DNA of 64,000 bases from Chthonomonadaceae bacterium (GTDB lineage: Bacteria > Armatimonadota > Chthonomonadetes > Chthonomonadales > Chthonomonadaceae): contig DAIDHN010000012.1 of NCBI GenBank assembly GCA_027459665.1, forward strand, positions 1 to 64,000, written 5' to 3'. A program made the translations under genes and the position numbers. Every line of letters begins with the position of its first letter. The stretch's first letter is position 1. Below are positions 52,707 through 55,931 of this stretch, one piece after another. Below the pieces are notes generated by a model. It was given only the letters and a program-made list of their open reading frames with translations. It was not told the origin of the DNA and searched no databases.

Positions 52707-53396
52707 GTGATCAGTGACGCGCCTCATCATCTCCCCGCGAGCCACCTCAAATATGCCGATATACCGGACAGAGAGATAGTGGACCGCGCACAACAGGGAG
52801 AACAGACAGCCTCAGAATATCTCCTGTACAAGTACCGCAATCTTGTACGAACTAAGGTGAAAGCCTACTTCCTTGTAGGCGCTGAGAAGGAAGACCTCCT
52901 GCAGGTCGGAATGATTGGTTTATGGCAAGCCATAATAGATTTCCGCAGTGATCGTGCAATTTCCTTCCCTGCTTTTGCCAAGGTATGTATTCAAAGGCAT
53001 ATCATCACCGCCATCAAAACTGCTACCCGTCAGAAACAGATGCCACTCAACACCTCCATTTCGCTCGAAAGCCCCACAGAAGACCCCTCCGCCGACTGGA
53101 ATCTCTCCGACATTCTCCCTGCAGCAGCAGCGCAGAACCCTGAAGACCTCGTGATACAAAGCGAGGACACACGTACCCTGCATGATACTCTGCAGCAGAT
53201 GCTTTCGGAATTCGAGTGGCGGGTGCTGGCAGGTTACCAGCTGGGAAAATCGTACAGGGAAATAGCATGCGAGCTAAGGTGCAAAACAAAATCTGTTGAC
53301 AATGCGCTGGCACGTATCAAAAGAAAGGTATCTACAATGCAGCTGGGCAATGCCAACCTGAATCAGCTGCTCACACATCATTGTCATCGCAGCTAA
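52707..53396 (+). CDS. sigH: RNA polymerase sigma factor, SigH-like
   Basis: A 229-residue sigma-70-family factor. Region 2 is very close to the SigH pattern: YLLYKYRNLVRTKVKAYFLVG, EDLLQVGMIGLWQAIIDFR, SFPAFAKVCIQRHIITAIKTATRQKQ. Region 4 is QMLSEFEWRVLAGYQLGKSYREIA followed by TKSVDNALARIKRK as the helix-turn-helix. In Bacillus SigH drives early stationary-phase genes; in this organism the target genes are unknown. No anti-sigma gene is adjacent. The start is GTG at 52707 with GAGGGA upstream. It is divergent from the ABC exporter and upstream of gdhA. Confidence 0.9.
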   Translation: MISDAPHHLPASHLKYADIPDREIVDRAQQGEQTASEYLLYKYRNLVRTKVKAYFLVGAEKEDLLQVGMIGLWQAIIDFRSDRAISFPAFAKVCIQRHIITAIKTATRQKQMPLNTSISLESPTEDPSADWNLSDILPAAAAQNPEDLVIQSEDTRTLHDTLQQMLSEFEWRVLAGYQLGKSYREIACELRCKTKSVDNALARIKRKVSTMQLGNANLNQLLTHHCHRS

Positions 53397-53542: not shown

Positions 53543-53631
53543 AGGGAACGATTGCTAGAGGCAGTGTCGCCAAAAGCAGCAGGGGTAATCCCATCGTTCC
53601 CTCTTCTGCTGAATCGTATGATTCGAGGAGG
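53543..53631 (+). promoter_or_regulatory. Structured gdhA leader with ribosome-site-masking hairpin
   Basis: A 10-bp closing stem P1 (AGGGAACGAT 53543-53552 with ATCGTTCCCT 53593-53602) encloses P2 (TGCT/AGCA 53553-53556 with 53575-53578, then GGC/GCC 53560-53562 with 53569-53571) and P3 (GGG/CCC 53582-53584 with 53590-53592): a three-way junction. Directly downstream CCTCTTC (53600-53606) can pair fully, with one wobble, with the ribosome site GAGGAGG (53625-53631), supported by GAATC/GATTC (53611-53615, 53620-53624). P1 and the masking hairpin share 53600-53602, so they compete. This is riboswitch-like; I recognise no known class. ATG is at 53643. Confidence 0.55.
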
Positions 53632-53642
53632 AATCAACTACC

Positions 53643-54986
53643 ATGACTGCGACAACTACTACCGTGAAAACTGCTGAAGACGTAAACGAAACTAAAACCG
53701 CATCTGTACGCAGCAAAAATTCTGTACATGCTCCCTCCCATGATAGCGCTAACCCCTACCAGAATGCACTCAAACAGCTTGAGCTGGCTGCACAAAGACT
53801 AGAACTTGATGCAGGAATACATGAAATACTCAAGCACCCTGAACGCGAACTCACTGTACACTTCCCGGTAAAAATGGATGACGGGTCGCACCGATCTTTC
53901 ACAGGTTATCGAGTACAGCATAATATAGCCCGTGGCCCAAGCAAGGGAGGCGTGAGATACAGTCCGCTGACCGACCTTGATGAGGTGCGCGCACTCTCGA
54001 TGTGGATGACTTGGAAATGCGCCATTGTAAACATTCCATTCGGAGGCGCAAAAGGCGGGGTGGTGTGCGATCCTAAACAGCTCTCTCCTGGCGAACTAGA
54101 ACGACTTACGCGCAGGTACACCTCAGAAATAAGCATTGTCATCGGCCCCAATACCGACATACCTGCCCCCGATATGGGAACCAACCCACAGGTAATGGCA
54201 TGGATGATGGATACCTACTCTATGCAGCATGGCCGCACGGTTCCAGCAGTTGTTACAGGAAAGCCCGTTGCCATTGGCGGCTCTGAAGGCAGAGCGGATG
54301 CTACGGGAAGGGGCATTACCTTTATCGCCAGGGAAGCCCTGCGTGAAAGAGGCCGCAGCCTAACGAATGCCACCGTAGCAGTGCAGGGGTTTGGCAACGT
54401 AGGCGGTACCGCAGCAAAAATATTCCACGAACTAGGCGCGAAAGTGGTGGCTGTGTCTGATGCCATAGGCGGAATTTATAACCCCGGCGGGCTTGATATA
54501 CCAGCGCTGCAGGAATGCGCCAACAGAGATGGAACACTGACAACTCACAGCAGTGGCAAACAGATTTCATCAGCCGAACTGCTGGAACTTGACTGCGATA
54601 TTCTGGTGCCTGCTGCCATAGAAAACCAGATCACTACAGAAAATGCCCCACGCATCAAGGCAGACATTATTATTGAAGGCGCAAACGGCCCCACTACCCC
54701 GGCTGCAGACCGCATTCTGCAGGAACGAGGGGTATTTCTGGTGCCAGATGTGCTTGCAAACGCCGGCGGAGTAGTAGTAAGCTATTTTGAATGGGTACAA
54801 GATTTGCAATGCTTCTTTTGGCAGGAAGAAGAGGTAAATGCAAAGATGGAAGCAATTATGACACGTGCCTATCGAGATGTAAGACAGATGGCGCGAAGAG
54901 AAGAAGTAGATATGCGACTCGCTGCTTATCTGATAGGCGTTAGGCGTGTTGCCGATGCCTCTACTTTGCGCGGCATCTATCCGTAA
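53643..54986 (+). CDS. gdhA: Glutamate dehydrogenase (Glu/Leu/Phe/Val family)
   Basis: A 447-residue hexameric-type dehydrogenase interconverting glutamate and 2-oxoglutarate plus ammonia. Signatures: SFTGYRVQHNIARGPSKGG, TWKCAIVNIPFGGAKGGV with the catalytic Lys region, PAPDMGTNPQVMAWMMDTYS, the Rossmann VAVQGFGNVGGTAAK and DVLANAGGVVVSYFEWVQD. An unusual ~40-residue Thr/Ser/Lys-rich N-terminal extension precedes the core. GAGGAGG lies 11 bases before the ATG and can be masked by the leader structure at 53543-53631. It is convergent with glutamate formimidoyltransferase, another glutamate-related gene. Confidence 0.95.
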   Translation: MTATTTTVKTAEDVNETKTASVRSKNSVHAPSHDSANPYQNALKQLELAAQRLELDAGIHEILKHPERELTVHFPVKMDDGSHRSFTGYRVQHNIARGPSKGGVRYSPLTDLDEVRALSMWMTWKCAIVNIPFGGAKGGVVCDPKQLSPGELERLTRRYTSEISIVIGPNTDIPAPDMGTNPQVMAWMMDTYSMQHGRTVPAVVTGKPVAIGGSEGRADATGRGITFIAREALRERGRSLTNATVAVQGFGNVGGTAAKIFHELGAKVVAVSDAIGGIYNPGGLDIPALQECANRDGTLTTHSSGKQISSAELLELDCDILVPAAIENQITTENAPRIKADIIIEGANGPTTPAADRILQERGVFLVPDVLANAGGVVVSYFEWVQDLQCFFWQEEEVNAKMEAIMTRAYRDVRQMARREEVDMRLAAYLIGVRRVADASTLRGIYP

Positions 54987-55058: not shown

Positions 55059-55931
55059 TCACACTGGTTCTAATATCTGTTCAGGCTTCCATTTATGCCA
55101 CAGTATCTTGCCAGGGCTTGCACCGGCTAGCAAGCCCGCTGGAAGCACTCCTATTATTTCGGTTTCCTCAACCCTTAAGCCGTGCATTTTCGCAATATCA
55201 TCCACAAATTCAAACAGAAGCGGCAGGCTGTTTTTATCTGGCTGGGTGAGATTCATTGATACCTGCGCCCTCCCGCGTGATGGCAAAAAGAGTGCAAGCG
55301 CACGCACGCCTTCCAGTATTTTCATGTGGGTGCGTTCTCTTCGGATACTTTTGCATATCAGTTCTGCAACTTGCATTTCCCTGCTGTTCAGATACATATT
55401 GCAGGCAACCAGGGCAGAGCGTGCTCCTGCCAGAAGCACGCCTCCGCTTGGATGAGCTTTTTGCGGCCCGTCGTCTGCCGACAGTTCATCATGCAATAAC
55501 GCATGCCTCCACTGAGGAAGCGTAACCGGATATTCCCTGCGTACAGCCCATTCGTAGTAGTACACTGGTATTTTAAAACGATCTGCAATCTCTTTGCCTG
55601 TACGCCATGCCAATTCTACGGCTTTGTGCCTGTCTGTGCCTGCAAGCGGGGTGAATGGAAGTACATCCAATGCACCAGTGCGGGGATGCAACCCAATATG
55701 AGTGCGAAGGTCAATCTTTTTCAACGCCTCTTCGGCTGCATTCACCGCGGCAGCAAACACCGACTCGCCATCACCTATCAGTGTGATAACAGACCGGTTG
55801 TGGTCAGAATCCATAGACCAGTCGAGCACCCGTACATCCGCTGCAGCCTGAGCAGCTGCTACAATAGCCTCTACCACTGCTCTGCGTCTTCCCTCGCTGA
55901 AATTGGGGGTGCATTGATACAATTCACCCAT
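55059..55931 (-). CDS. Glutamate formimidoyltransferase (FtcD N-terminal type)
   Basis: A 290-residue enzyme equal to the formiminotransferase part of FtcD, without the cyclodeaminase domain. Visible are QCTPNFSEGRR at the N-terminus, DWSMDSDHNRSVITLIGD, the folate/active-site HIGLHPRTGALDVLPF, and the C-terminal subdomain RGRAQVSMNLTQPDKNSLPLLFEF. It transfers a formimino group between glutamate and tetrahydrofolate in histidine breakdown. It is convergent with gdhA, which would use the released glutamate. No hut genes are in view. Confidence 0.94.
   Translation of the reverse strand: MGELYQCTPNFSEGRRRAVVEAIVAAAQAAADVRVLDWSMDSDHNRSVITLIGDGESVFAAAVNAAEEALKKIDLRTHIGLHPRTGALDVLPFTPLAGTDRHKAVELAWRTGKEIADRFKIPVYYYEWAVRREYPVTLPQWRHALLHDELSADDGPQKAHPSGGVLLAGARSALVACNMYLNSREMQVAELICKSIRRERTHMKILEGVRALALFLPSRGRAQVSMNLTQPDKNSLPLLFEFVDDIAKMHGLRVEETEIIGVLPAGLLAGASPGKILWHKWKPEQILEPV

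Follow-up and report, generated by a model that had tools for sequence, protein, structure and literature searches.

The window, that is, the whole stretch of 64,000 nucleotides analysed here, comes from a Chthonomonadaceae genome and carries a gene for glutamate dehydrogenase (GDH), an enzyme at which carbon and nitrogen metabolism meet. A gene for a small sigma-70-like factor (Sigma70_r2; 52707-53396) immediately precedes gdhA and has the same orientation, and a glutamate formiminotransferase-type gene (FTCD; 55059-55931), which specifies another enzyme of glutamate metabolism, is convergent with it. The gdhA leader and gene comprise the following features:

53543..53552, forward strand: 5' arm of helix P1, AGGGAACGAT (fold, covariation, flank duplex test)
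53553..53578, forward strand: P2 hairpin, TGCT-AGA-GGC-[AGTGTC]-GCC-AAA-AGCA, hexaloop in brackets (covariation)
53561..53570, forward strand: P2 apex, GC-AGTGTC-GC, with the conserved core GC-ARYGNM-GC in relatives
53579..53592, forward strand: 3'-side bulge, which can fold as a small P3 in the window (per-leader folding against shuffles)
53593..53602, forward strand: 3' arm of P1, ATCGTTCCCT (fold, covariation, flank duplex test)
53600..53606, forward strand: CCTCTTC, complementary to GAGGAGG, a putative anti-Shine-Dalgarno (anti-SD) sequence; not conserved
53620..53635, forward strand: Shine-Dalgarno (SD) hairpin, GATTC-GAGGAG-GAATC, with the SD in the hexaloop; before gdhA in 14 of 31 genomes of the order
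53643..54986, forward strand: gdhA, glutamate dehydrogenase, 447 aa (Pfam PF00208 and PF02812; NCBIfam GDH models)

The 10 bp of P1 (53543-53552 with 53593-53602) stack on the P2 hairpin. The preliminary description had placed P1, P2 with its AGA/AAA internal loop and a small P3 in this leader, and all three are present at the positions claimed. The segment 53543-53602 folds at -25.3 kcal/mol (z -3.9), a value reached by none of 200 shuffled sequences, and P1 in the window taken alone is significant in a test of the duplex formed by the flanks of P2 (p<0.001).

Leaders of gdhA orthologs were taken from 31 genomes of the order. Nine Chthonomonadaceae genomes have the P1-P2 element ahead of gdhA, as a C-G-closed hairpin with an ARYGNM loop and an abutting outer helix. 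The P1 sequences of these leaders are mostly unrelated to each other, for example AACGAT/ATCGTT, CAGCGG/CCGCTG, CTGCGG/CCGCAG, AATATACT/AGTATATT and ACCCT..GCCC/GGGCAGGGT. Within an alignment of six leaders (A5), 94% of the pairing cells are paired (against 73% in shuffled and at most 43% in slid alignments) and 10 of 14 pairs show changes on both sides, against a shuffle mean of 5.3. P1 itself has 97% of its cells paired and four of six pairs altered on both sides; for P2, which in relatives consists of 6-9 mostly continuous pairs, the corresponding figure is six of eight. Since this alignment was trimmed by hand at P1 and so leans towards that helix, the alignment-free flank duplex test was added. 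In each of the nine leaders the best duplex between the flanks of P2 takes up the same position, with its first strand set 0-3 nt before P2 and its second about 10-18 nt beyond; the combined Fisher p is about 2e-9 for the nine leaders and about 0.001 for the three outside the alignment, whereas G011, G013 and G004 are not significant singly. In the more distant G030 the hairpin is present and the same test detects no P1 (p 0.7). Covariation and the alignment-free duplex across nine leaders together establish that the P1-P2 structure is real as a set. The orthologous leaders could have lacked the stems or the compensatory base-pair changes expected of a conserved, structured cis-regulatory leader; both were found, and the P1-P2 stems survived this comparison.

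Sequence conservation in P2 is concentrated at its tip. Loop positions A1 and G4 and the C-G closing pair are invariant in the nine leaders, and departures from GC-ARYGNM-GC occur in one leader each at loop position 3, loop position 6 and the second pair. A C-G-closed hairpin of at least 5 bp with an A-R-H-G loop was found in eight of 15 leaders scanned, where 0.07 would be expected from shuffles.

A covariance model of P1-P2 (R1), applied to 151 Armatimonadota genomes, gives confident matches to Chthonomonadaceae gdhA leaders only, all others being at chance level. A further 80 gdhA loci, mostly from other phyla, gave no significant match outside the family, and searches of the window's own genome by BLAST and covariance model gave no convincing second copy. 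The element is in this way linked to one gene family, and the stems found in relatives support the earlier proposal that gdhA has a specific cis-regulatory leader with conserved structure. It is small and well delimited.

One interpretation is that the element is not regulatory, and that a 5'-terminal stem stabilises the mRNA next to a favourable SD context. The conservation of P1 in structure and not in sequence is compatible with such a role. Moreover, -10-like hexamers, which in several relatives were recognised by eye a short way ahead of P1, would place P1-P2 at the 5' end of the mRNA; in the window leader itself, neither a sigma-70 promoter nor a terminator was found by consensus. A stem at the 5' end could serve mRNA stability only. 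However, this leaves unexplained both the conserved hexaloop and the gdhA-specific 16-nt SD hairpin, and we regard it as improbable.

The segment between P2 and the 3' arm of P1 is more variable. Folding of each leader against shuffles supports P3 in the window, G002, G007 and perhaps G009, whereas the 10-18-nt segment does not fold in G004, G006 and G013. P3 was rejected as a conserved helix on this basis; since it is missing in several relatives, the three-way junction initially described is not the conserved architecture, which includes a bulge that folds only in some leaders. Junction and bulge sequences differ between leaders and contain no conserved nucleotides. A pseudoknot between loop and bulge was also considered; by eye only G004 could form the pairs, and this was taken as chance.

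The preliminary description had further proposed that CCTCTTC masks the ribosome-binding site in competition with P1. Its complementarity to GAGGAGG and its overlap with P1 at 53600-53602 are confirmed, but the masking stem is not conserved. When the 5' arm of P1 is blocked in silico, predicted pairing of the SD to upstream sequence rises from 0.05 to 0.61 in G006 and from 0.04 to 0.93 in G013, rises weakly in G000 and G002 and does not change in G011, G007 and G004; in G001 the SD is predicted to be paired with or without P1. Several relatives lack the anti-SD, and masking that depends on P1 is clear in two of nine leaders, weak in two and absent in three; an anti-SD switch was therefore rejected as a conserved feature, and with it the logic of an aptamer coupled to a sequestrator.

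These observations bear on the possibility that P1-P2 is a riboswitch, binding a small metabolite of nitrogen metabolism and thereby switching SD accessibility. Covariation in a stem domain that precedes just one metabolic gene is what such a device would show, and the predicted response of G006 and G013, with the weaker one of G000 and G002, is in keeping with it. Like translational riboswitches, the leader has a stem domain and, downstream of it, an SD capable of pairing, and like the glutamine (glnA) riboswitch it is structured and precedes a nitrogen-assimilation gene. Riboswitches, however, carry conserved core nucleotides, and the gdhA leader has neither conserved junction or bulge bases in which a ligand core could be recognised nor a conserved P3 or anti-SD pairing. 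The distribution is very narrow, and an Rfam covariance-model scan, proposed earlier as a check for a known riboswitch or leader family, yielded one tRNA as the only match in the window and no plausible match to the leader, that of the glutamine riboswitch included, either at gathering score or at E values up to 10. A riboswitch is thus unlikely, and the suggestion that a ligand related to nitrogen or glutamate switches gdhA finds no support in a junction devoid of conserved nucleotides and a P3 absent from several relatives. A literature search for a gdhA RNA motif returned nothing relevant; RNA-level control of gdhA in Armatimonadota is not described in the literature searched.

The most conserved regulatory piece of the leader is not the eye-catching upstream stem but the SD hairpin, which was overlooked in the first reading. 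With at most one mismatch it precedes gdhA in 13 of 61 genomes, and G006, with two mismatches, provides a fourteenth gdhA case. Elsewhere, hairpins of this type with at most one mismatch occur in only three of the 61 genomes (G034, G037 and, as a second site, G027), and none of these is convincing as an SD. In most leaders the hairpin lies 38-47 nt after P2, and the predicted ensembles do not always favour it (G001, G002 and G013). G008, G010, G027 and G028 keep the SD hairpin and have no clear P1-P2 hexaloop element, and G005 has neither by eye, which indicates that the two modules are separable.

Because GATTC-N6-GAATC is also an imperfect palindrome in DNA, the repeat might be read as an operator for a transcription factor. 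Yet the repeat has the SD at its centre and lies near the start codon, and the substitutions found in the stem in four genomes alter one side only and all retain pairing through G-U (GGTTC/GAATC and GATTC/GAGTC), which favours RNA over a DNA palindrome. A DNA operator is accordingly very improbable.

A variant of the SD hairpin, GGTTCAAGGAGGAATC, with a stem of 6-8 bp, precedes an aspartate-aminotransferase-like gene in G021 (C25:21877) and G029 (C206:46911), two genomes of one genus that have no close gdhA ortholog. Hairpins of this type are absent before the aspartate aminotransferase orthologs of G024, G027 and G018, and the SD regions of aminotransferase genes are not conserved in the order. 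The idea of a shared nitrogen regulon was dropped, since the hairpin is limited to one genus and missing from three other orthologs.

An SD presented in a hexaloop is an established layout for operators of CsrA (PMC4894983), and the SD hairpin could be such an operator, with CsrA binding the loop GGA and repressing gdhA translation. The gdhA GGA likewise lies in a C-G-closed hexaloop over the SD, as in the CsrA layout CANGGANG (PMC4894983). The likeness to the CsrA/RsmA operators of flagellin leaders, in particular that of flaA in Campylobacter jejuni, extends to a second hairpin upstream and to compensatory changes in relatives (PMC4894983). A CsrA gene is present in 22 of the 31 genomes of the order, the window's own among them. 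Most of the flagellin leaders inspected in the clade have CA(C/T)GGAGG at the SD, in agreement with the published CANGGANG hexaloop (PMC4894983), so that CsrA appears to function in its customary manner in these bacteria. In contrast to the flaA operator, the gdhA loop, which contains GGA in 13 of 14 leaders, departs from the CsrA consensus at its first base, which is G instead of A in each of the 12 CsrA-positive genomes that carry the hairpin; the upstream ARYGNM loop has no GGA. The two remaining carriers of the hairpin, G008 (98% complete) and G030 (78% complete), have no CsrA match and begin the loop with A. The association between first loop base and CsrA presence gives a Fisher p of 0.011, in a small sample of related genomes. 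The exceptional loop without GGA is that of G006, and flagellin is likewise missing from each of the nine genomes without CsrA, which argues that CsrA tracks motility rather than the gdhA hairpin. The G-for-A loop base, the hairpin in genomes with no CsrA match and the loop of G006 make CsrA unlikely as the conserved partner of the hairpin, and simple repression of gdhA by CsrA is correspondingly doubtful. It may instead be that the gdhA SD loop is tuned to weaken CsrA binding, which is a lead and no more.

Conserved sequence in the leader is confined to the two hairpin loops, the apical pairs of P2 and the SD stem, a pattern that one would sooner expect of a protein operator than of a metabolite aptamer. 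The leader of the Chthonomonadaceae and some of their relatives probably controls the amount of the enzyme. That P1-P2 and the SD hairpin form a lineage-specific cis-regulatory leader controlling gdhA translation through an RNA-binding factor is a proposal drawn from sequence comparison, to which we give about an even chance. The P1-P2 stem near the 5' end would display the conserved C-ARYGNM-G hexaloop and the downstream hairpin would present the SD in its loop; a factor acting in trans, most probably a protein that binds RNA, would recognise the SD hairpin, and perhaps the P2 loop as well, in competition with the ribosome, so that GDH synthesis would follow nitrogen or carbon status. While both structures, their conservation and their linkage to gdhA are observed directly, it is the translational control, the protein partner and the signal that we infer. 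A more speculative version, held only tentatively, is a two-module RNA regulator of GDH new to science, in which the P2 loop and the SD hairpin would be read together by an RNA-binding regulator (or a metabolite) sensing nitrogen status, and in which the base in the SD loop would be tuned so as to escape the resident CsrA.

The P2 loop invites one comparison with a known protein target. The loop of the iron-responsive element, recognised by aconitase/IRP, is CAGUGN, and the loop region of P2 in the window reads CAGUGU, a lead only. The register differs, as the gdhA C closes the stem by pairing with the G after the hexaloop and not with the loop G, so that the C1-G5 pair of the element is missing; the loops of relatives read CAAUG, CAGCG or CAAAG, and a C bulge 5 bp below the loop is not conserved.

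At the SD of most flagellin genes of the order (leaders L275-L299) stands CACGGAGG or CATGGAGG, both of them textbook CsrA sites. CsrA and flagellin are missing together from G008, G019, G021-G024, G026, G029 and G030. Some of the flagellin SD sites lie in clear hairpins, for example CAATTC-ACGGAG-GAATTG in L276.
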